DNA of 64,000 nt, taken from NCBI GenBank assembly GCA_907164885.2, contig OU015496.1, forward strand, positions 102,447,068-102,511,067. Reading direction: 5' to 3'. Under the pieces are notes generated by a model. It was given only the letters and a program-made list of their open reading frames with translations. It ran no database searches and had not been told where the DNA came from. The translations under genes were made by a program, and so were the position numbers. The stretch comes from Dolomedes plantarius. Lineage: Eukaryota; Arthropoda; Arachnida; Araneae; Dolomedidae. Positions within the stretch are counted from its first letter, which is position 1. The number at the start of each line of letters is the position of its first letter. Below are positions 12,111 through 59,670 of the stretch, piece by piece.

Positions 12111-12365
12111 TAAGTCTCTATCGCAAAGAAGTGTCTTGGATGAATTCATGCGTAATCAGATAAAATATGATGTAACATTATAGGATTGCTTCCATATTTC
12201 CTTACTAGGAGTCAAGTAAAAAATCGCACAAAGTGCGAATAATAGTGGTAGAAAAGAGGAGAAGGCCGTTTTATTTGCGAAAAGTGGTTTTTATTATGTT
12301 TTACAATGAATCTAGATTTTTTTTCTTCTTCTTATCTCATAGTTCAAATTATCGCATGCCACTAT
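12111..12365 (+). repeat. Repeat segment linked to SINE 1 (also at 42540-42812, inverted)
   Basis: The stretch from 'gtctctatcgcaaagaa' to 'cttcttcttatctcatag' is matched on the opposite strand at 42540-42812, including the exact words 'aaaaaatcgcacaaagtgc' and 'gttttacaatgaatcta'. In both places it lies directly before a family-1 SINE head, so the SINE and this upstream segment were copied together. Confidence 0.75.
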
Positions 12366-12672
12366 CCCATCCAGGTGTTCGGTTCAAATCCCGACTAGTG
12401 CCATAAAATACCTTCGTGTCTCAGCAATACATAGGCACGTGAATTCAATAGATCAGAGAGTCCTTCTACGATATTAGAGAGGGTGGGGGGAAGGTACGAT
12501 TCTGCCAGATGTCGCTCCTAGGGGTGCGCGGTAAAAATTGTGGTGGCACCTGACTAAATCGGACTCCAATCCTTGTGGTACCATAGTAAACCGGAACCGC
12601 AACCCTTAGCCAGCAATCGTAGATGGACCTGGTCTTCAATACTCCAGCCAGGGGGTTAAGTAGCTACAACTT
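12366..12672 (+). repeat. tRNA-derived SINE family 1, long copy
   Basis: A box B-like 'ggttcaaatcccgac' (about 12381) precedes a body with 'cagatgtcgctcctaggg', 'gtggcacctgactaaatcgg' and 'gatggacctggtct', ending near 'gctacaac'. Other copies lie at 33176-33300, 40100-40190, 40793-41068 (minus), 48225-48455 and 48700-48900. The 3' ends share 'aacaac'-type tails. It is probably RNA polymerase III-derived and mobilised by a LINE, by analogy with known SINEs. Confidence 0.8.
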
Positions 12673-21665: not shown

Positions 21666-22640
21666 TTTTCTCTGTGCATAATAAAACATACTATTTAGAT
21701 AGAAATTTTTCTTCCTCATCATTTCAAACAGTTTATAGTACTGTATACGATAATACCATTCGTCCCTTATTAAACATGAAATTAGTCTCACAAGTGTTTA
21801 TTTATCTATTTACACTATGCAACACACCAATGAAATAAATGCAATGTGTTATTCACGGCGCGTTGCAGCGTCTTCCATTTTTCACAAATAATGACCTTCC
21901 CTTTCATGTTAGAATAAAAAGAGAGATTACTGTTCATATAAAACACGAGGTTGTGTTGAAAAGGGAGATTTTATTGACGATGTCCTGAAGGAATCTGAGT
22001 ATTCTTGTCTTCCTGTTTAAACTATAGAACGAGCAAAGGTTTTACTTTGATCAGCGGTGCATAAAGGAATATATTTTATGAGTGCCTTGCGTTAACTCTT
22101 ATGTTTGCTTTTCGTTTAAATTACATCCTGAATCCAAGTTTGGTGAAATTCCCATTTCATGTTTTTTAATGTGTAATTACTCCTGTTGTTACTTCTAACA
22201 ATGTGCGATTCCGAGGGAAGTTTCAAAAATATATTTCTAAAGGTTGACGTATTCCCATGAGATGATAATCCGAAAACGCTTTGATATTCCTGCGATAGTA
22301 TGTTTGTATGTTGTTGTTGTTTTAGAAATATTCCTGTGTTTGCTTACGGATAGTTTTATAAAGCTCATCCTGTCTTTTTTAATTAGGTCATTTGTCGTAG
22401 CTCCCGCTACTCTACGAAAACATTCAGGAATTTTACTTTGAAGTCATCCATACTAAATGAAAAAGGCAATTTAAAGACCGATAGACAAGGTACGTAGCGT
22501 TATTAATTTAAATGAGTTATATGCTGCTGAATTTCCAGATTCGACTCCCTTGAGTTCGCAATGTTAAAAAAAAATGGCTGCGTACACTCTGAGTGGGTGT
22601 AAATATTGTCCTGATAGGCCTTATTTATTACAGGAAAGAA
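21666..22640. other. Non-coding DNA with a piece of repeat RB
   Basis: 21960-22095 shares 'acgatgtcctgaaggaat' and following words with repeat RB. The rest is unassigned. The left edge of the LINE is somewhere between 22580 and 22650. Confidence 0.45.
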
Positions 22641-24725
22641 ATTATTAACTATACCAAACACATTAATTGGAATTTATTTAAAAGTAATCTAGATAGTACT
22701 CCTTACATCCCCCCCATCGTAAATAATATTAACGATCTGGAAAACTTAGTTACCAGTATAACTACAGACATTAACAACAGCCTAAATAATAGTACCAAAC
22801 TTATTCCCCCTAAAACTAACACGTTACACGACCAACACCTTAAAATTTTAATCAACAATAAAAATAGATCCCGTAAAAATTGGCAACATAACAGAACTCC
22901 TGATAATAAAACTAAAAGGAATCAAGCTCAGGAAGACTTTAAATACTATCTTCATGACATTTCTAATAAAAACTGGCAAAATTACATAGAATCTCTAGAC
23001 ACCACTGAAAACTCCATTTGGCGAGCCGCTAAAAGATTTAAAAATCAATATCGTACCATTCTCCCTTTAAAAGACCCAGATAGTAACACTTATGCAGAGA
23101 CCGAACAGGAAAAATGTGAACTAATAGGTAAAAATTTTGCTAAAAACTTCACTCCGAATCCCATCCTAAACAATAGCACAGAAAACATTGTTAATACTAA
23201 TATAAATCTTTTTCTCAACACCCCACATGAAAGACTAACTCCATACATTGTCCCCATTGACGTTATTAATATGATCAAAAAACTCCCTAATAAAAAAGCC
23301 CCAGGTGAAGATAATATTAATAATACCATGCTCAAAAACCTCCCCTACAAATATATCTTTAAAATTACTATTGCTATCATCTCCATCATTAAATTTGAGC
23401 ATTTCCCCCATAGTTGGAAAAATTCTATTATTGTCCCTATTCAAAAATCTAACAAACCCAGCAATTCCCCTAGCAGCTACAGGCCCATTAGTCTTCTAAA
23501 TTCAATAAGTAAATTAGCTGAAAAATTCATAGTTAAATATATTAATGATCACCTTCAAGGAAATAACATTCTCATCCCTAATCAATTTGGCTTTAGAAAA
23601 TCCCTCTCTACCCCTCACCAAGTTTATCGGCTAACAGAACATCTAACACATGCTAGGAAAAATAAGCAATCCACTGCAGCCCTGTTCCTAGACATTTCCT
23701 TAGCCTTCGATAAAGTCTGGATCGATGGACTCATCCACAAATTAATTAACTATAATTTCCCCCCCCCCCCAAATCATCAGGATTCTCATTTCTTACCTAA
23801 AAATTAGAACTTTTCAGGTCAAAATTAATGGTCAGCTTTCTAGCAAATTTAATATCTATAGCGGCCTGCCACAAGGTAGCGTCCTCGCCCCCATTCTTTT
23901 TAATTTATTTGTTAATGATTTTTCAATTCACTCTAATGTTAACTGAGCAATTTTTGCGGACGACACAGCCGTTTATTCTTCTTGTAGAAATTTTAAATAT
24001 GCGGTCAAAAACATTAATAAGTACATGACTATCATCCAGCAGTGGCTCGACAAATGGAAAATCAAAATTGACAATGAAAAATGTATAGCAGTTATGTTCA
24101 CTTCAAAGCGTAAAAAATCCTTCCTAAATCATCAAATTAAAATCGGAAACACAAATCTCCCCTGGTCTGAAACTGTAAAATATCTTGGCATTGTTCTCGA
24201 TAAAAATATCACTTTTAAACATCACATCACACACGTTAGGAACAAGTTTCGAGCAGCTCTCAGACTAATATATCCCTTAATTGCTCGGAACAGCAAATTA
24301 AGCATTCAAAATAAATTGCTCATGTATAAATCGTTTCTTCGTCCTATACTAACTTATGGTGGGCCAGCATGGTCATACTGTGCTGAAATGCATATTAAAA
24401 AACTAGCTTCTCAGCAGAGCAGCACGATCAGATAAATAATAAATGCCCCTTGGTACTTCCGTAATGTTGACATCTACAATGAAATCGGTCTCCCCACTCT
24501 TAAAAAACACCTTCAAAATCTAGCCATTAACTTTCACTACAATATCGATAATTATTTACTTAAAGACTTAGCAAATTATGATCATGCTGACCCCTCTAAC
24601 AGGAAACGGCCTAGAGTCATCCTGTCTTTTTCTTAAATGTTTTGTCCTTCGTCCTTATTATAAAAAAATAAAAAATAATACTTGGCTTGCCAAGGTAAAA
24701 AACAACAAAAAAATTTTATAAAAAC
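22640..24725 (+). mobile_element. Jockey-clade-like LINE, 5'-truncated
   Basis: The element starts inside ORF2 (linker 'INWNLFKSNL'), lacking ORF1 and the endonuclease, and continues through the RT to an A-rich 3' region (about 24660-24725). 5' truncation is typical of target-primed reverse transcription. Codons are A/T-rich like the flanks. The 3' tail is A-rich rather than pure poly-A. A target duplication was not resolved. Such elements usually supply the enzymes for SINEs, several families of which occur nearby. Confidence 0.88.
22641..24636 (+). pseudogene. Non-LTR reverse transcriptase (ORF2), frameshifted
   Basis: In order: linker; RT block 'KKAPGEDNINNTMLKN'; 'SWKNSIIVPIQK'; 'SYRPISLLNSISKLAEK'; 'NQFGFRKSLSTPHQV'; motif A 'ALFLDISLAFDKVW' (about 23680-23721); 'GLPQGSVLAPILFNLF'; motif C 'FADD' (23953-23964); then thumb 'WLDKWKIKIDNEK', 'VKYLGIVLDKN' and the C-terminal part to a TAA at 24634. 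A 12-base C run at 23759-23770 marks a frame change, a TGA sits just before the FADD motif (23944-23946) and another stop is at 24433. In the intact enzyme motifs A and C hold the catalytic aspartates that copy element RNA at a nicked target. Both survive here, but the protein is broken. Confidence 0.88.
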
Positions 24726-40792: not shown

Positions 40793-41073
40793 TTGGCTAA
40801 AGTATTCAAGACCAGATCCACTAAGGCTATCGAGCTGAAGGGGGCGTCTCCAGTTTACATTGGTACGACAAGGGTCAGAATGCGATTTAGCCAGGTGCCA
40901 CCTCAATTTTGACTGAGCATTCCTAGGAGCGACATCTCGCGGAATCGCATCTTCTCCCACCCTCTCTGACATCGTAGAAGGACACTCCGGTCTATTAATT
41001 TCACTGGCACATATCTTGCTCAGACTCGGAGGTATGTTATGGTACTAATCGGAAGGATTCGAACCGAGCACCC
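40793..41073 (-). repeat. SINE family 1, interrupted by a solo LTR
   Basis: Minus-strand copy: 'gatttagccaggtgccacct', 'gcgacatctcgcggaatcgc', 'ctctctgacatcgtagaagg' and a box B complement 'ggattcgaaccgagcacc' at 41055-41072. The SINE head and its upstream segment resume at 42535 after the LTR, so the LTR landed just beside box B. Confidence 0.85.
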
Positions 41074-42534
41074 TGTCATAGGGACATGACAATAGTGCCA
41101 CGGCGAGGGGCACGAGAATTGAAAATTACGGGACGAAGTAAAATAACTGCTAAATGTAAGAAAGAAACATGGCAAATGACGGGCAATAAAAGAGAAGGGG
41201 AGAAAGCCAACAATATAGAGAAACTAAATATAAAGATTGTGCTTGTAACAAGAAGTATAAGATAAAACTTCAAGAGAGTGAGTTGCAACGAATAGAAGAA
41301 AAGAAGGAAGGGAAGACTAAATTTATGATGGCTATAAAACAGGCCACCCTGCTTGATGCCAGAGCATGGGAAAAGGTTAAATTAGGGGGAGAATTTTATA
41401 AATCCCGCCCTCGATGCGCATTGGTGAAAAGGGGATTGAGAAGAGGCAGCCACGTGCGAATGGCGATGGCATGGTAATAATATGACCAATGGAAATTGTA
41501 AGAGGCGGAGTCAGCATTAATAAGAGAAAATAATATGAAATAAGATAGGAAGGCACATAAGAAAGTGAGTTTGTTAGAAGTTTGAAATAGAGGTAGTGTC
41601 AATCCGATGAATATGTAGGAAGAACCCCGATGATATAAATATAAGTCGTGGCCCATGCAAAGGATCCCTAATACCTAGGAAGAGAGCGCCCCAGTGTCCC
41701 GTGCCGAGGGTCTGCAATGAGTGAAGGAGCCATATAACCTATGATGAGAGTGCCCCAGTTTACTGTGTAGAGTGTTTGCCATGATTGAAGGAGCCATGTA
41801 CCAGACGAAGAGAGTGTCCTAGTTCCATTTCGATGATAATACAACGAAGCGCGTCCTTACGAGTGCCAGCTGCCCATCATAGTGATCAAACAGTCATCTT
41901 TCGAGCTACCGACTTTTGCGTTTCCTTTTCATATGACCGTCATTTCTTCTCAGTGTGTAGCCTTAATAACTAATATAGAGCGCGAGGAGGATGTTATTTG
42001 AGTATAGAATGTTAAGGAGGTGACCGATAATTCGTAAAAAACAATTTAATTAATATGATGTTATGCTTATATATGAGTAAATATTGGTAGTAATGGAACA
42101 AGGTTATATGAGTGATTATGCTTATAAAATGTTATCATAATAAGTGAATGAATTAAATATATGAGCCGTAGAGAATTAACTTAATAGTAATGAAGTTGTG
42201 ATTAATGTGAAGATGGAGTATGAAATATTATCGTAAATAATTGAATGAATTAAATACATGTGTCGTAGAGAATTACTTAGTAGCAATGAAGTTGTGAGTA
42301 ATATGTGTAGATGCAGTATGAAATATTTAATAGTATTGTATCGTAGTGTTTATGTGTTAATATTCAATAAATTAATTTGTCAGTGCAAACCAGAGTTGTT
42401 TCCATCATTTGGGAATGACAACTAATAATGCAATATACTAACCACAATCTTAATGAATTCAAAATCATAATTATCATATTATTATAATTTATTATAATAC
42501 CCCAATTCATTATTCTTATCTTTTCACTGCCACA
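41074..42534 (+). mobile_element. Solo LTR, 1461 bp, with 5-bp target duplication
   Basis: Begins 'tgtcatagggacatgac' (41074) and ends 'cactgccaca' (42534), giving TGT...ACA. CACCC stands directly on both sides (41069-41073 and 42535-42539). Removing the segment restores a family-1 SINE that matches 12366 onward, which fixes the boundaries. An AATAAA near 42367 suggests plus-strand sense with a long U3. It has tandem subrepeats: about 73 bp around 'cgccccagt...gaaggagccat' (41672-41825) and about 105 bp around 'gaatgaattaaata...gtagagaatta' (42146-42350). There is no internal region, as after LTR-LTR recombination. It shares U3 with the fold-back at 58628. Confidence 0.9.
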
Positions 42535-42812
42535 CACCCGGATGTTATAGTGGCATGCTATAAGGTGGACTATGAGATAAGAAGAAGAAAAAAAGGTAGA
42601 TTCATTGTAAAACATCATGAAAACCTTATTTCACAATTAAAACAGCCTTCTTCTCAAGCACCCTTTTCGTCGTTAATGTTTGCACTTTGTGCGATTTTTT
42701 ACTCGACTCCTAATTAAGAAATCTGGAAACAATCTTATAATGTTTCATCTTCTTTTATCTGATTCCGCATGAATTAATCCAAGATTCTTACTCGTCTTTG
42801 CGAGGGACTTTC
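42535..42812 (-). repeat. SINE-linked repeat, second half after the LTR
   Basis: Complement of 12111-12375 (see there). Begins with the duplicated CACCC. Confidence 0.8.
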
Positions 42813-43719: not shown

Positions 43720-43723
<4 letters not shown>

Positions 43724-43727
43724 GCAT

Positions 43728-46636
43728 TAGGGTGGCTCGAAAAAAACTTTTTTTTAAATTTCAGATTGCTTGTGTGCGCAAAAGTTGCCATTGGTATAGA
43801 CGTGAAAAAATCACTAATTATTATTTTTTTATTAATTTGTCTTCCGGTCGCGGAATGCCATCGAAGTTAGCAAAAAATTGTGAAAAACCTTAATTTTTCA
43901 TAATTTTTTTAAGTACGCCAGATGGTTTTAATTCGTTCCTATACCATTAATTAACTACTAAAAGTATGTAAAATCAATATATATGCACTTATTATACATT
44001 TGTTTCATATCTTCCGGTCGCGCAACATAGTACAAAATGAGTAAAATTAGTAGTTTTTGCAAAATTTTAAAATTTGACTGTTTAGTACATTTTAATCATA
44101 CTACTTTTAGAGATGCTATAGTTTAATTCTATTACAATAATATATTTAAAATCCAAGCATATCAGATAAACTTTGATATTCAAGTAGAATTCGGTTGCGC
44201 AGCTTCGTCAAAAACAGCAGAGTAGCCTACTACCGAGAGGCGAGACGTACGTGGCAAATGCCGCGCCTTGACGAGTGACCGATACGTGACGAGTGACCGA
44301 TATGGCGTATCGGATCGCGCTACGACTGCTATTGCTTCAAGTGTACTGCAAGATGTTGGGTTGATTAATGAATCAGATACTTCTTATGTTGTAGACAAGA
44401 GTAAAGTCCGAAGAGAAAAAACTTGTGTGATAGCTAGTTTGCAAAGTGATATAATTTTAGAAATTTATGGTCTTTACTTTGATGGACGAAAAACAATACA
44501 TTGCCAATTGAAAAAACTGGCAAAAGACACTTTCGCAGAATCTATAAGGAGGAGCATTACTCTTTAATTCAGGATCCAGGCTCCACTTACATAGGACTCA
44601 CTTGTCCTTCTTCAAGCTCAGCAACAGACATAGCCAAAAGCATCACGTCTTATTTATCAGTAAATGGCTTTTTACTTGACAAATTGGAAGTTGTTGGATG
44701 TGACGGTACTGTTATTAATACGGGCTTAAGAAATGGTGTAATTCGACAAATAGAGATACATGTGGGAAGACTTCTACAATGGAGTATTTGTCTTCTCCAT
44801 TACAACGAACTGCCATTCCGCCACCTTTTCCAACACTTATATGAAAATACAACAGGCCCAATAGGATATTCCGGACCGATTGGAAAGGCCCTACCTGATT
44901 GTGAAAGACTACCGGTTGTTGATTTGAATCCTATTGATTGTGAGATTCCAAAGTTGACAAGCATATTCTTAGCAAGGACCAATTGTACTTGAGATATCAG
45001 AAGTCATCAAGTCAGGACATTGTTCAGAAGACTTTGTAGTACGGGATCCTGGCCCAATGTCACATTCAAGATGGCTTACTATTGCAAACCGAGTTTTGCG
45101 CCTCTACATCAGTGTGTCAAGAGTGTGTCAAGCCCTTCTGAAAATCGGAGAGAAATTGTCACATTCATTCTCAAATGTTATATACCTATGTGGTTTGCCA
45201 TAAAAATAAACCGCAAATTCACAGATGAGCCTAGACATGTTTACAAAACTATTGAATCTACAAGGTACTTACCACAAGAGCTGCTTCAAGTTGTTGATCC
45301 CGTTTTACAACGGAATGCTTACTTTGACCATCCCGATAATTTACTTTTGGCTATGGTAACTGATGAAATACACCATATCCGAGAGCTGGGCTTTAGGCGT
45401 ATCATGAAGGCAAAGCAAGCAATATCTGAAAGTGACTCTATCAGAATCTTTAAACCACCAAACCTGAACTTTGAAGCTAAAGACTATACCGAAATTATCA
45501 AATGGAACACCAGTACACTCACTCTTCCTCCACTGTTAAGAACATTGACTAATGAAGAGATAAAACAGTATGTGATCAATGACTTCAAGCCTTTTATAAT
45601 TATAGATGCTTTTCCATGCCATACACAGGCAGTTGAAAGATGCGTTAAGCTAGTGACCGAAGCTTCAAGTAAAGTGTGTGGACACAGTTCCAGAGACGGC
45701 TATATTAGAACCACATTACTGTCACGCTCAGCGATGCCAACTTTTTCACACAAATCAGAATTTCGATGTTTATCGATAGATAAATACTAGAAAGGAAACA
45801 TAAAGAGAGAGAAAGCGAAATAAATTTGTACATATTGTAAATAACACACCCTACATTGGATGGTTGGTTGGGTAGGGTGTGGGTGGAACTCGAAATGCAG
45901 CCACCTCCCCGTGGTGAGTTCTGGGTCGTTTTGTAAACAAAATAAGCAAAGACCTGCACCAACAATTGAATATTGAAAAAAAAAATTACCAAATATTTAC
46001 TATTAGAAAATTTCTAAATTATCTGAAAGGAAACATTGTCAAACAACAAAATTATCAGACAACGATAATGACTGCTACCGGCTGCGAGCGCATCGCTGGC
46101 ATTCGTCACGTACGCCTCGCCTCTCTCTCCAGGTAGCCTACTCTGATGTTTTTGACGAAGCTGCGCAACCGAATTCCACTTGAATATCAAAGTTTATCTT
46201 ATATTCTTGGATGTTTAATGTAATATTCTAATAGAATTAAACTATAGCATCTCTAAAAGTCGTATGATTAAAATGTACTAAACAGTCAAACTTTGAAATT
46301 TTGCAAAAACTACTAATTTTACTCATTTTGTACTATGTTGCGCGACCAGAAGATATGAAGAAAATGTATAATAAGTTCAAATATATTGATTTTACATACT
46401 TTTAGTAGTTAATTCATGGTATAGGAACGCAATTAAAACCATCTGGCGCGCTTAAAAAAATTATGAAAAATTAAGGTTTTTCACAATTTTTTTGCTAACT
46501 TCGATGGCATTGCGCGACCGGAAGACAAATTAATAAAAGAATAATAATTAGTGCTTTTTTAACGTCTATACCAATGGCAACTTTTCTGCACTCTAGCGAT
46601 CTGAAATAAAAAAAAAGTTTTTTTCGAACCACCCTA
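43728..46636 (+). mobile_element. hAT-like transposon with about 535-bp TIRs
   Basis: The ends 'tagggtggctcgaaaaaaac' (43728) and 'gttttttcgaaccaccccta'-type (46636) are inverted. The match continues inward for over 500 bp (43728 to about 44262 and 46102 to 46636), including 'gttgcgcagcttcgtcaaaaac' and 'cttccggtcgcg' twice per arm. ATATGCAT stands on both sides (43720-43727 and 46637-46644), an 8-bp duplication as made by hAT or P-type elements. The interior holds one decayed transposase. Total 2909 bp. The two arms differ by scattered substitutions, so the insertion is not very recent. Confidence 0.88.
44268..45790 (+). pseudogene. hAT-like transposase, three frame changes
   Basis: Segments in order: 'DIILEIYGLYFDGRKTIHCQ' (about 44448); 'STYIGLTCPSSSSATDIAKS'; 'LEVVGCDGTVINTG' (about 44685-44728); 'LLQWSICLLHYNELPFRHLF' (44773 on); in another frame 'VVRDPGPMSHSRWLTIANRV' (about 45039-45098); then 'LQVVDPVLQRNAYFDHPDN', 'IRELGFRRIMKAKQAI', 'FPCHTQAVERCVKLVTEASS' (about 45613-45672) and 'RDGYIR'. 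The layout D (FDGRK), D (CDGT), C..LH, RW, late E resembles the RNase-H fold of hAT transposases; this is inference. Frame changes lie near 44560, 44980 and 45130, with TGA at 44990. I recognise this sequence type as common in arthropod genomes but cannot name its subfamily. Confidence 0.75.
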
Positions 46637-46644
46637 ATATGCAT

Positions 46645-47794
46645 AATGGGCCTCTGTGGCCGTTTTAAGAGGTGCCCGGCTACAGAAGTTTCACTATATA
46701 TATATATATATTCACCATTTATATAATTCACTTTTTCTATATATATACACATACAATGTTGAGTACACATATTATAAAAACCTTTCGCAGGATTCCCACA
46801 ATAGAAATCTAATTTGATTGAACCGCATAAAGAAACAACATCAAAAATTTAACTAACAATTAAGTGCATATAATATATCTCATCCATAATATCAAGAACA
46901 CTACTATGCAAAAATGTTGCGCCCTTTACTATAGTAGGTCTTTGAATTGTAAGACTAGGGAAAACGGATATTTTTCATATCCAATTATAACTACACTGTC
47001 ATAATTTATCAAAAGTCCCTTCAAAATTTGAAAAAAATAAATTTATCAAAAAATATATGAAAATGTGATCTTTGAAAAAATAATGTTCAGATTTATCTAT
47101 CAGAATGACGCAACTAAAGCGGATTTGTTCTACTCGTTGAATACGATAAAAGAAATCAATTCCAATGTAAAACATTTTCTTTGTAACTCTCCTCCTCAGG
47201 TAATATCCAAGAAGAATATACATGAAAAATGAGTCTCCTCGAAGCATGTTTTCCAACTGAGCTCGCATTCACCTCTCTCCAATTTAGAGATGGAACAAAC
47301 ATGAGTCGATATCTAAAGATTGGTAAATCAAATTGAGGGAGCACAGGATTCGGATGTACTCACGAGAATGACGTTTTGTATGATAGGATCAATAGAATCT
47401 GATGTGATCAATGGGGAGGCATTTTATTCCATAGTTTGTTCAAGATTTCAACATTCTAAACGTGTCGAGATGTATATTTTGGAGAAATCAATTTCTGAGT
47501 GACTAGTTCACGTATTCGATTTGAAAGGTCACTGGAATATCTATGAATGGCGTCTTGGGTACTAAAAATGTGCATACGAAATCGCATGAAAGATACTGTC
47601 TAAGCTCACGAGATGCAAGTTTATATGCAGTTCCTAAATATCCCCAAGGAGTTATTACAGTTAGTAAATGGCAGTATTCTCCTTGTGTGATCTCCTCCAA
47701 CCCTTCAATGTCCAAATTAAGATTAGATAGTTAAATTACACCCGTCGCACGTTTTAGAAATTGAAATAAACCAAACTAAACCATTTCAAGCTGC
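46645..47794. other. Non-coding DNA with a short TA tract
   Basis: TA tract at 46696-46711. Overlapping open frames near 47320-47730 on both strands show no motif and are not called. Confidence 0.45.
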
Positions 47795-51347: not shown

Positions 51348-52083
<736 letters not shown>

Positions 52084-52099
52084 TATATATATATATATT

Positions 52100-53634: not shown

Positions 53635-54736
53635 GTTTTCTTTTTATGTCTTTCTTTCGTTTTAAGATGCAAGTTTCACCTGCTTATCAAAGGAGGAAGA
53701 ATATTTTCGAATAAAACCGTTTCTGACTGTTCTCATATAAATTTAATTGAGAAATTTCTCCATGTTTGTTGTAATGTAATATTTAAATCTGATAATTAAG
53801 AACTTCCGCGTAAAATTCTGGAGGAAATTTCAAGTTGTTAACTTTTGCCTTACCGGTTACTTAGTGACAAAAATAAAATGCAGTGCCACAGAAGTAGCTA
53901 AACGTCCTTATAAACTGGGTATTTTAAATTTCTACGCAAACAAAAGAAATTTTAACGGATATTCTTTAACTGGAAAAGTAATTATATCACAGAAATAAAT
54001 TATATTTTATTGGTCTATATAAAGTAAACATTTCATAATGTACATTATTATATTCTTTTTGGTATTACATAGTATAAATTCGATTTCAATATTGTAGATA
54101 AGACCGTATCTTAATGCAATACCAAAGAGATATTCATTATTCACTCTTTAGATTTTTTCATGTCTTTCTTCCATTTTAAGATGCATTTTATAATACCTTT
54201 ACCTACATAGCAAATGAGTAAAAATATTTTCGAAATAAATAGTTTCTAACTATTCTCATGTAAATCTAATTAAGAAATTTCCCATTTTTGTTGTACCTCA
54301 ATATGTAAATTTGCTGTATATAATATTCCACCTAAAATTCTGGATATTTCAGGTTATTAAAATTTGTTTTTCTAGGTACTAAAAATGAAAAGTGGAGAAA
54401 ATATCAAAAATGATAAAGAGACCATGATGAACTATTATAAATGTATTTTCAATAATGTAAATTTAATTCCATTAACATTAATAACACTATCTCTATATGC
54501 ACTGAAAATTAGATATTTCATAATGATCTTAACGCAATACCAAATATGTATTGCAATATTTACCCCTTGGATTTCTTTTTTACCTTTCTCTCTGTTCAAG
54601 ATGCATTTTTTGTAACTTCCATATTTATAGCAAATGATTAAAAACATTTTCGAATGAAATAATTTCTAACTATTTTCATGTAAATATAATTGAGAAATTT
54701 CCCATGCTTGTTGTACTGTGATATGTTGCTGTTTAA

Positions 54737-55493
54737 GGTGACTGCCTACTTTGAAAATGTCATTTTTTGATTATTTTGGTCAATTTCATGTTTTGCAAAA
54801 ATCGTGTAATTTAATCTTTTCTCTTTTAAAAACCATTTTGATTTTTATTGTACATCATTTAGAAGCAGAGTAAAAACACCGTCTGCTACAAAATTGAAGT
54901 GACAAACAACTTTAAATGCGTTTTTCTCAGAATTATTGTTTTTAGCACAAATCTCTACCATTATCAGGAAATCTCACATAATAATGCATATAATTTGATA
55001 AAATTTTCAGGAAATGTTTTAAATGCTATTGTTAATGAAATGATGTACAATAATTGATATATAATAATAGTTTGTACAATAATATAATTGATGTACAATA
55101 ATAGTTTTTTTTTTCGGGGGGGGCTGTTTTTATAAGGAAAGGAATGACGAATCTGGGATAATATTCATATTGGAACATAAAACTGTGTGTATCATTTTTG
55201 TATTTTAAAATTTTTCTTAGATTGTAGGTCATTTTGAAGATAACTGTGATATGTATTTTGTGTGAGAAGGAAATAAAAATAGTAGTATTAGAATTTTGTG
55301 CAGAGTGATAGGCGTTTTAGCTAAATTTCATTAAAAATTACTTCAAATTGACCAATTTATAAAAAAGGTATTATATTAAAAGGTAAGTTTTTATTCTCTT
55401 TTTAATTTTTATGTTCTATTTTACTATAAAAGACAAAAAAATTCTTTAAAAATGATCTTAAAATAAAATTGGCTCCGAACGTAGGCAGTCACC
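54737..55493. mobile_element. TTAA-targeting transposon, non-autonomous
   Basis: Inverted ends 'ggtgactgcctac' (54737) and 'gtaggcagtcacc' (to 55493) are flanked by TTAA on both sides (54733-54736 and 55494-55497). The TTAA lies at a position where undamaged array units read 'ctctttaa.aacttcc', which supports the boundaries. 757 bp, AT-rich, no open frame. TTAA duplications are made by piggyBac and Kolobok elements; the ends do not start with the CCY of most piggyBacs, so Kolobok-like is a guess. Confidence 0.82.
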
Positions 55494-57329
55494 TTAAAAT
55501 CTTCCTCGTAAAACTGTAGCCATTTCCGGTTATAAACTTTTGCCTTTCCAGTTACTAAAAATTAAATGTAGGTAAAAAAAGAAAAAAAAAGTCATTATAA
55601 ACTTTTATAACTTTATTTCCGATAATATAAAATTAATTTCAACATCGTTGATAACAATATCTCTTTATGCAATACCAAATCTATATTGCATTATTTCAAT
55701 TGAGAAATTTCCAATGTTTCTTATACTCTAATATGTAAATATGCTCTTTAAGAACTTCCACATAAAATTCTGGAAATTTCAAGTTATTGACTTTCGCATT
55801 TCCAGTTACTCAGTGATCAAAAATATTATATAGAGGCAAAAAAGTAACACAACGTCCACAATCTAGATCTTTGAAACCTCCACTCATTTTTATTTCAACT
55901 CAGCAAATAAGAATAGATTCTCTTCAACTTGGATTGTAAAGATATATAGAAGAAATTAATTCTCTTTTCTCGGTCTTTATTAAGTAAATATTTCATAAAA
56001 TATATGCAATATTTTTTTTTTAGTACTGCATTCTATAAATTTATTATCAATATCGTTGATAACACTATCTTTATGCAATACCAAGTAGGTATTGCATTAT
56101 TTGCCCTTTAGATTTCTTTTTATGCCTTTATCTAGTTTTAGGATGCATTTTATGTAACTTTCCTCTGAGATTTATCTTACTTACTCATTTGAGCAAATGA
56201 GTAAGAATGATTCCGAATGAATTAGTTTCTGAATATTCTTATATAAGTCAAATTGGAAGATTCTCATGTTTGTTAAACTGTAACATGTAAATTTGCGCTA
56301 TAAGAAAGCACTTAAAACTGTGCAAATTTCAAGTTATTAATTTTTACCTTGCCAGTTATTCAGTGACCAAAATGAAATGTAAAACTAAGCGCTAACAAAG
56401 TATCCTCACAAACTGAATGTTTTAAACCTCTACTCATTTTTCTTTAAACTCAACAAATAGGAAAGAATTTTATTTAACTGGAAAACTAAATATATCGAAG
56501 AAAAGAATTCTCCTTGCTTGCTGTTTATAAAGGAAATATTTCATAGTATATATTATTATATTCATTTTGGTACTGCATACTATAAATTTATTTTCAATAT
56601 CATAGATAAAGCGATCTCTTTGTGCAATACCAATTGGATATTACATTATTTACCCTTTATTTTTTTATGCGTTTCATCGATTTAAGATGCATTTTGTATT
56701 GCTTTCACTCTCTATGCAAATGAGTAGGAATCTTTTCAAATGAAATAGCATCTGACTATTCTCATATTTATCTAATTGAGAAATTTCTAATCTTTATTAT
56801 TATGTTATATGCAGTTTTGCTCTTTAAAAACTTCCCCGTAAAATTCTGGAAATTTCAGGTCATTCACTTTTGCCTTTCCAGTTACTTAAAGTAAATTTTT
56901 CTTTAAATGTAACAAAATGACATGGCAAACTTAATCATTTAGATTTCTACTCACTCTTTTCTAAACTAAAGAAATAAGAATCGATTGTCTTTAACTGGAA
57001 AAGTTATATATATCGAAGAAATTAATTCTATTTGTTTAGTGTTTATAATGTTAATAAAGATAACATTTCGTAAAATATATTTTTATATTCTTTTTTGTAT
57101 TGCATATTATAAATTTATTTTTAATATCGTAGATATAGCATATCGTAGATATAGCTCTTTATGCAATACCAAACAGATATTAGATTATTTACTCTTTAGT
57201 TTTTTTATTCCTTTCTCTCATTTTAAAATGCATTTTATATTACATTCACCTGATTAGAAAATGAGTAAGAATATTTTCGAATAGCATAATTTCTAATTAC
57301 ACTGACCAACAAATTTGAACTTTTTTTCT

Positions 57330-58440
57330 GTCCTTTAGATGAAACTATGTCATTCTGTATAAACAAAAGGTGCTTGATTCACATATGAAAACCAAAATGG
57401 TCCATCACTTACCGTTTTTGTAGGAGACCCAGTTTTCATATTTATACAAATTGGTTACAGAAAAATGGAACAGATGCTTGATTATAGAAAACACAAACAC
57501 TAAAATGATATTTTGTCCATTTCCTCTTGTAGACATCTGTTGGTGTGTCCCTGATTCCAGACCAGCAATATCAAGCTAGCATATTTCCATTCCATCGTCC
57601 ACTGAAACCCTTTTCAGACATAGAGATGTCCTGGTGAAAACTTTCCCCATGCTCATCACTAATTGCTCCAAGGTTTTGAGGAAAGAAGTCCAGATGTGAG
57701 TCCAAAAAGTGTAGTTTTAAAGACATATTTCAACCTATAACACGAAAACATTTCACAATGTCACCAACAAAATGTTCATAGTTGTCAGCTTTCTCGTTTC
57801 CAAGGAAACTGATTTGAATGCCAGCCAGGCTTCTTTTTCTGCTTGTGACAATTTGTTTTCAAAACTTCCTCATGAAAGACTGCTTTAATTTGTGGGCCAG
57901 TAAAAACCCCTTATTTTACCTTTGCCTCACTTAAATTTTTGAATTTGTTCTTGAGATTCAACAAAGCCACTCCTTTTCTGTCCAGAGCTTTTACAAATAA
58001 TTTCATCAAACCGACTTTAATGTGTAATGGTGGAAAAAAGACACATTGTGGATTCACAAGTGGTTCATGTCATATGTTTTTGGTGCTAAGAATGAAGTTT
58101 TTCTTGGAGGCCACTGTTTACGGATGTAGTGAATTTTCCTGTCACGGCTGTCCCATTCGCAGAGAACGCAGCAGAATTTAGTGTATCCCTGTTGCATGCA
58201 TATTAATATCCTAATGGCTTTCAAATCTCCACAAATGTGCCATTTGAATGTAGTGTACTCAATTAACTTCAGTATAGAACTCATAACTTCGTAAGTTTCC
58301 TTTGTATTTGTGCAATATGCTACAGGAACAGACGGACAAACACTAGCTATATGGAGGGTCACTGCTTTAAGATTACGTTCGGACAAGTCAATAAACAGGC
58401 GCCACTCTGCTGGATTATGGCCTATTTATGGCCTATTTAT
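57330..58440 (-). pseudogene. Transposase-like protein, decayed (CACTG element)
   Basis: Minus strand, in order: 'AEWRLFIDLSERNLKAVTLH' (about 58350-58410); 'MSSILKLIEYTTFKWHICGDL' region (58220-58300); 'GYTKFCCVLCEWDSRDRKIHY' region (58110-58190); 'VNPQCVFFPPLHIKVGLMKL' (about 58000-58060); 'FVKALDRKG'; 'GVFTGPQIKAVFHEEVLK'; and far downstream a relic 'EKGFQWTMEWKYASLI' (57580-57640). I recognise this as a type abundant in arthropod genomes. Candidate acidic residues are the D in 'LFIDLS' and the D in 'CGDLK'. Stops occur at 57917 and many later positions; the region between 57900 and 57650 is short compared with relatives. Confidence 0.65.
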
Positions 58441-58627
58441 GTCCGAATGCCTGAAATAGGCCATTCACATCACAACAATATAAAGATGGCTTTTTTCTCC
58501 GCAAAATAGTCTACAAAATGGCTTTGTCGTCTTAAAAATAAACATATTTTGTGTAGCGGCGCTTGACGCTACAGTATAGATTTTCATTGCTAAAATGTGG
58601 ATTTTGGCAAAAATGGTGCGAGGTAAA

Positions 58628-59152
58628 TGTCATAGGGACATGACAGTAGTGTTACGGCCAGGGGCAGGAACATTGAAAAGTACAGGACAAAGTAAAATAA
58701 TTGTTAAATGCAAGATAGAAACAGGGCAATAAAAGAGAAGGGAGAAAGCCATAGGCCGAAACGAAATTTAGAGATTGTGTTTGTAGCAAGAAATAGAAGA
58801 TAAAAGTTGAAGAGAGTGAGTTGCAAGAAGAGAATAAAAGAAAATTTATGATGGCTATAAAACAGCCCACCCTGTTTGAAGCCGAAGCATGGGAAAAAAG
58901 TTAAAGTTGAAAGATAATTTATAAATCCCGCCCCCAATGCGCATCGAGGGCGGGATTTATAAATTCTTTCTTGCTACAAACACAATCTCTAAATTTCGTT
59001 TCGGTCTATGGCTTTCTTCCCTTCTCTTTTATTGCCCTGTTTCTTTCTTGCATTTAACAATTATTTTACTTTATTTTGTAACAATTATTTTGTCCTGTAC
59101 TTTTCAATGCTCCTACCCCTGGCCGTAACACTACTGTCATGTCCCTATGACA
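58628..59152. mobile_element. Palindromic LTR-derived fold-back with 5-bp duplication
   Basis: Starts 'tgtcatagggacatgacag' and ends with its exact complement 'ctgtcatgtccctatgaca'. Both arms match the U3 start of the solo LTR at 41074 ('gggcaataaaagagaaggg', 'ataaatcccgccc'). The left arm is about 310 bp and the right about 210 bp, lacking a segment around 'gatggctataaaacagccca'. The arms meet at ATGCGCAT, itself self-complementary, which in the solo LTR is followed by ordinary LTR sequence. GTAAA stands on both sides (58623-58627, 59153-59157), so the whole palindrome inserted as a unit. Open frames in it are fortuitous. Confidence 0.88.
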
Positions 59153-59670
59153 GTAAACAAAAAATAATTACAGATTCATTATTTTCAGCCAAAAATATAC
59201 GATAAACACACATTTTCATTTGAAAGACATTTTTCATGTTGTACAGTGTTATTCTCATGTAAGTCTAATTAAAAAATTGCCAATTGTTTGTACTACTGTA
59301 ATATGCAAATTTACTCCTTAAAAACTTCGTAAATATCAAGTTATTAATTTTTTTCTTTCCAGTTACTCAGTGACCGAAAATAAAAGCTAGAGCAAAAATA
59401 TTACAAAACATCCTAACAAACTGGATATTTTAAACTTCTACTCATTTTTCTTTAAACTGAACAAATAAGAATGGATTTTCTTCAACTGCAAAAGTAAATA
59501 TATCGAAGAAATCTATTGTCTTTACTTGATCTTAAAGTAAACATTTCATAAAAGTATATTAAAATATTCTGTTTGGTACTGTATATTATAAATTTTGCTT
59601 TTTATGGTGTGGCAATATCTCTTTATGTAAAATATCGCAATGTATTTCATTTACTTATAAATAGAGAATA

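Follow-up and report, generated by a model that had tools for sequence, protein, structure and literature searches.

The window, a 64,000-nucleotide stretch of a Dolomedes plantarius contig (OU015496.1), contains an imperfect palindrome built from two LTR heads that face outward (Table 1). Both of its ends carry the same 17 bases, TGTCATAGGGACATGAC, read on the plus strand from 58628 and on the minus strand from 59152, and GTAAA stands directly outside each of them; an initial annotation of this DNA had reported exactly these identical outward-facing U3 ends and flanking 5-mers, and its coordinates and letters are correct. At up to three mismatches, TGTCATAGGGACATGAC has one further copy in the window, at 41074 (expected in all, 0.06); the two termini match most of 29 family LTR heads and have the TG...CA form of LTR ends. 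Of 63,395 window positions, 164 have equal 5-mers at the spacing of the GTAAA pair. When the arms are aligned, 189 of 196 columns match and 7 do not, and their alignment score of 291 rules out a chance palindrome, since 500 shuffles reached no more than 38.5. The arms had been described as copies of the same U3 end, yet they are unequal: the right arm has a 19-nt insertion and an internal deletion of ~121 nt, the left a 1-nt gap, and the palindrome is accordingly lopsided. Family copies match 58934-58967 of the right arm at 97-100%.

Table 1. Features of the double-U3 palindrome and of related elements (window positions unless another locus is named)
Feature	Position	Strand	Description or basis
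Double-U3 LTR palindrome	58628-59152		525 bp, imperfect, two U3 heads outward
Left GTAAA target-site duplication	58623-58627	.	5 bp
Right GTAAA target-site duplication	59153-59157	.	
Left arm: U3 head, collinear with LTR family to CCCGCCC	58628-58933	+	Arm alignment, 29 family copies
Right arm: inverted U3 head, LTR letters retained to ATTGG	58934-59152	-	Family matches
Centre: CCA (complement of LTR TGG), then octamer ATGCGCAT	58934-58944	+	Family comparison
Right-arm internal deletion point (~121 nt), LTR left at GTAGCAAGAA	58966-58969	-	Arm and family alignment
Right-arm 19-nt insertion, in part duplicating its neighbour	59073-59091	-	Arm and family alignment
Solo LTR, more divergent subfamily	41074-42534	+	1461 bp, TGT...ACA; CACCC duplication; uninterrupted paralogue
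Uninterrupted paralogue of the repeat hosting the 41074 LTR	12134-12670	-	78% over 550 columns
Second double-U3 element	C11:103547866-103548506 (L056:1001-1641)		641 bp, two outward heads, GGTCT duplication

Several other repeats share the window. Degenerate units, many ~520 bp apart and roughly 70-80% alike, occupy 53641-59595 and include the right flank of the palindrome from ~59250; searching with the flanks found no empty site for the palindrome within the 64 kb. An element at 43721-46645 has inverted terminal repeats of ~549 bp (92%) and frames of 163 and 256 aa that have no Pfam match. At 51440-52098, two inverted arms of 205 nt, 95% alike and separated by 249 nt, adjoin an AT microsatellite, and at 22593-23807 lies a LINE-type reverse transcriptase frame (RVT_1) whose best named relatives are in spiders, at ~41% identity.

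What kind of element supplied the two heads? The family was sought in the assembly that the window comes from (390 contigs, 2.78 Gb), the best 40 of 1896 candidates being scored. It is large, with units of ~1.3 kb that read TGT...ACA: in 21 of 29 loci (L003-L031), an ACA lies 0.92-1.37 kb on and is followed by an exact repeat of the 5 bases that precede the head (the other 8 have none), and an exact 5-bp duplication accompanies six of ten further heads (L046-L055; L049, with no exact head, was left out). A polypurine tract, GAGAGAGAGGGGGTGAA, follows a run of T's directly before the TGTC head in L003 and L055, and a PBS-like site, TTTGGTGCCCTGAAAC, lies behind the LTR of L028. Behind this site (L028/L032) are frames of 309 and 190 aa, the shorter of which carries CDICVQDDHDVKEC, a CX2CX4HX4C pattern that we take to be a gag-like CCHC knuckle. 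Pfam assigns neither L032 frame to a family at its cut-off (one DUF match falls below threshold), and the 309-aa frame had no protein match at E 0.01; a further 5000 bases are N, pol was accordingly not seen, and no 3' LTR was found for L028 where L032/L033 can be read. Because of the polypurine tract, the PBS-like site, the gag-like knuckle, the TGT...ACA termini and the 5-bp duplications, the family is taken, from its sequence features, as a probable LTR retrotransposon. A DNA transposon is ruled out by the same tract, site and knuckle and by the asymmetry of the 41074 unit, which has TGT...ACA only. A viral relative was set aside, as the single 17-mer match in a GC-rich viral contig showed no likeness on either side and is taken as chance; a 24-mer found no match in prokaryote genome contigs. 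Two loci have heads in the same direction: L055, with heads at 1501 and 2807, 1306 bp apart, and the polypurine tract directly before the second; and L057 (C6:128118000-128120300), with minus-strand U3 heads at 1097 and 1342, 245 bp apart, perhaps a tandem partial duplication or a nested copy.

The solo LTR at 41074 is flanked by CACCC at 41069-41073 and 42535-42539, and the paralogue of its host repeat aligns across its joined flanks. This LTR and the other solo LTRs of the family (L004, L006-L014) are like the palindrome in their U3 head, TGT terminus and 5-bp duplication; they run from U3 to U5, whereas the palindrome lacks U5, ends in U3 on either side and so is not an ordinary solo LTR. 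Integrase normally takes one U3 and one U5 end. Since a normal insertion has one of each, the U3 ends on both sides, framed by identical 5-mers, make it very probable that the palindrome was inserted as one unit. The U3 ends, the GTAAA duplication and the shared family traits thus support the LTR origin and unitary insertion proposed in the initial annotation; for the two ends and the duplication, integration of a linear DNA that carried U3 on either side is the best explanation.

Did both arms come from the same source? An 11-nt insertion that marks a subfamily is present in 10 of 46 family heads and absent from both arms. The arms also share a T at column 26, which occurs in two of the 29 copies L003-L031 and in nine of the 46 heads, a sample picked by likeness to the arms. 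Outside the join, eight differences are private to the left arm, with columns 336, 337 and 340 counted as later mutations; one substitution and the two large indels are private to the right, whose differences at columns 202-207 stem from the alignment at the edge of its deletion and are left out of the counts. All these private differences may be later than the insertion. Arms from clearly different subfamilies, which would have told against insertion of a single cDNA product, are not what is seen: in this small sample the two are of one subfamily type with a shared allele, and a single source element appears to fit them better than two subfamilies.

The most informative part of the palindrome is its join. 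The initial annotation placed the fusion at the self-complementary octamer ATGCGCAT and stated that this octamer is normally internal to the LTR, at about 41413. The latter is correct (the solo LTR has it at 41414-41421), and the octamer does lie in the centre of the palindrome, at 58937-58944; the join itself falls between 58933 and 58934, 3 nt beyond the octamer. The family reads CCCGCCC-TCG-ATGCGCAT-TGG at 31 of 33 loci (single mismatches tolerated outside the triplets; the pattern left the other two unparsed). Read in the LTR direction, the right arm keeps the LTR letters through TGG and then continues as GGGCGGG, the complement of the left arm, its LTR identity ending at the 3' end of TCGATGCGCATTGG. 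The left arm reads CCCGCCC-CCA-ATGCGCAT, with CCA in place of the family's TCG. The T and G at the two informative triplet positions are invariant in 29 of 29 copies, and it is from all of these that the left arm departs, at exactly the two positions predicted by pairing with TGG; the left-arm CCA is therefore read as the complement of the right-arm TGG.

TCGATGCGCATTGG is a 14-nt quasi-palindrome (308-321 in L003 numbering). Within a 1390-nt LTR stretch it is, with seven half-pairs, one of the two longest quasi-palindromes with zero loop, and it has the most Watson-Crick (five) and GC (three) pairs among them; the other, at 1191-1204, has no GC pairs. With DNA parameters, the predicted energy is -12.4 kcal/mol for pairing of two strands versus +2.4 kcal/mol for the exact hairpin. 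The best intramolecular fold predicted for the 30-mer ending at the join is a different one (-1.5). In the predicted 14-mer duplex the inner 12 bases of each strand are paired, with the terminal T.G wobble open, and the 30-mer ranks 37th of 1360 for self-pairing. TATAAA starts 27 nt ahead of the last base of TCGATGCGCATTGG; if the usual TATA spacing applies, as we assume, transcription would be predicted to start ~3 nt past TCGATGCGCATTGG, and the right arm would then reach near the end of U3.

How could a linear DNA acquire two U3 ends? In the model that we favour, as a whole at a little better than even probability, plus-strand U3 DNAs pair tail to tail, copy each other and are then integrated. 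The plus strands would begin at the polypurine tract, which puts the U3 end at their 5' end, and would halt close to the predicted border of U3 and R. Two such strands would pair tail to tail via TCGATGCGCATTGG: the 3' end ...ATGCGCATTGG would meet TCGATGCGCAT..., with two G.T pairs tolerated, and extension would proceed from the next base, each strand serving to extend the other back to its 5' end. The product would be a linear double-stranded DNA with a U3 end on each side, inserted by integrase with the family's usual 5-bp stagger; integrase is able to use two like ends in vitro. The two G.T wobbles would have been resolved toward the right-arm strand, leaving CCA, and the right strand would have skipped ~121 nt beforehand or lost them later. 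Some observations weigh against this model: the two transitions next to the join could have arisen by later mutation; extra steps are demanded by the ~121-nt deletion and the 19-nt insertion; and both the rank of the 30-mer and the open terminal wobble in the predicted duplex would count against pairing at TCGATGCGCATTGG.

The window palindrome has a counterpart elsewhere in the assembly. A search with the right arm, in which the best 40 of 1322 candidates were scored, found a second double-U3 element (C11; Table 1). Its left arm, of 459 nt, extends past the octamer; its right arm, of 182 nt, is 96.7% like the left, and where the two meet there is no palindrome and an overlap of 1 nt at most. 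Both C11 arms have the 11-nt insertion that the window arms lack, and on this marker the C11 element belongs to another subfamily and most simply represents an independent event; the column-26 T is present in all four arms. Despite the different subfamilies, both right arms quit the LTR within one base of GTAGCAAGAA(A) (58966-58969 in the window), equivalent to LTR 166-167 when insertions are discounted. This coincidence may suggest GTAGCAAGAA(A) as a stop site of plus-strand synthesis. The existence of two such elements suggests that double-U3 insertions recur in this LTR family, as a recurring mistake of the element; because the C11 join has no palindrome, pairing at one is not required for double-U3 products.

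C11 lends weight to the leading competitor of tail-to-tail pairing, in which host end joining or microhomology joining links two separately truncated U3-bearing cDNAs by their tails and integrase then inserts the product with its two U3 ends. Such joining explains the blunt or 1-nt C11 join, at an unrelated place, better than pairing does, and the exit of both right arms within one base of GTAGCAAGAA(A) looks as if cDNA often ends there. At the window locus, by contrast, it would need luck: the best quasi-palindrome of the LTR ends right at the join, and the far side of that quasi-palindrome has been copied into the other arm. We consider end joining less probable than pairing as the origin of the palindrome, though a serious rival.

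Another use of the same self-complementarity would be a single plus strand that folds back at the octamer and forms a hairpin by self-copying; opening or copying of this hairpin would later yield a linear palindrome. This is the fold-back priming proposed in the initial annotation, and part of that proposal survives: CCA for TCG is what priming of a 3' end at a self-complementary site would leave. A hairpin would leave the identical join footprint, and the column-26 T shared by both arms speaks for it too. What speaks against it is that a hairpin has a single integrable U3 end, that the exact stem has a positive folding energy, and that the deletion and insertion in the right arm must then be later changes. 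Pairing of two strands fits better on account of the single end and the unfavourable stem, and we hold the hairpin route to be unlikely. The initial annotation also allowed for inverted autointegration; this reaction leaves no free U3 ends and, as far as can be reasoned from it, does not predict a double-U3 structure.

Could the palindrome instead come from a family of fold-back DNA elements that have U3 termini and move as DNA? In keeping with this would be the existence of two double-U3 elements whose duplications differ, a column-26 T found in all four arms and in 9 of 46 heads, and a right-arm break at GTAGCAAGAA(A) common to both elements. Against this, the window and C11 elements differ in the 11-nt marker and in their joins, and of the best 40 of 966 candidates the window locus is the only one to match the 90-bp centre of the palindrome in full. 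No inverted head lies within 1.5 kb on either side of the 29 loci L003-L031, nor do any of the loci L046-L055 have heads in both directions. The suggestion of a proliferating fold-back family thus finds no support in these searches: siblings of the palindrome with its own join are missing from the best 40 of 966, older or rarer ones may lie lower in the ranking, and what the genome does hold is C11, with another join, subfamily and duplication. A family mobile as DNA is, to our mind, very improbable. That two LTRs were inserted independently, or that a normal insertion was later rearranged, is barely credible: either would account for the arm differences and nothing else, a normal insertion has a U5 end whereas here identical 5-mers lie outside two U3 ends, and C11 repeats the same architecture.

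The palindrome partly resembles several known systems. In retroviral self-primed strong-stop DNA, formed at the TAR hairpin of HIV, a cDNA primes its own copying once its 3' end has folded or paired at a self-complementary site. The palindrome would be alike in self-complementary 3'-end priming; TAR self-priming, however, involves minus-strand DNA at the start of R, is not known to give U3 ends and is a side product in vitro, whereas the palindrome is a genomic insertion with U3 ends. Fold-back elements and MITEs have long inverted arms, a target duplication and no coding capacity. The palindrome shares all three traits, but its ends are those of a retrotransposon U3 and no copy sharing its join is among the best 40 of 966. 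TRIMs carry a PBS and a PPT between their LTRs. In the accessible parts of the literature they are, like the palindrome, small, non-coding and mobilised by the enzymes of a full element; as presented there, their two LTRs have the same direction, while the palindrome arms are inverted and meet at the centre, so that the direct repeats of a TRIM are lacking.

Titles and opening lines of abstracts in the open-access literature mention no genomic double-U3 palindrome among the matches listed, and the available portions of PMC5445492 and PMC11226609 describe none; the words "palindromic LTR" do occur in the descriptions, as far as accessible, of two LTR-finding tools. The component steps are already known. 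What those titles and opening lines lack, without a claim that it is unpublished, is a genomic double-U3 insertion, found twice in one family and with a readable priming footprint.

The two elements provide genomic evidence that an LTR-retrotransposon integrase has inserted DNA with two U3 ends and no U5, with a normal duplication, apparently at least twice. Their joins record where plus-strand synthesis may have stopped and what was copied next; in animals this step is difficult to observe. They also show one route into a genome for palindromes that have convergent promoters and could give rise to double-stranded RNA. It is conceivable, though on balance doubtful, that the family regularly makes tail-to-tail dimers of plus-strand U3 DNA, with synthesis halting repeatedly around LTR 166 and an inherent quasi-palindrome close to the border of U3 and R, and that integrase inserts these dimers as a steady minor class; if so, this class would consist of convergent double promoters without U5.
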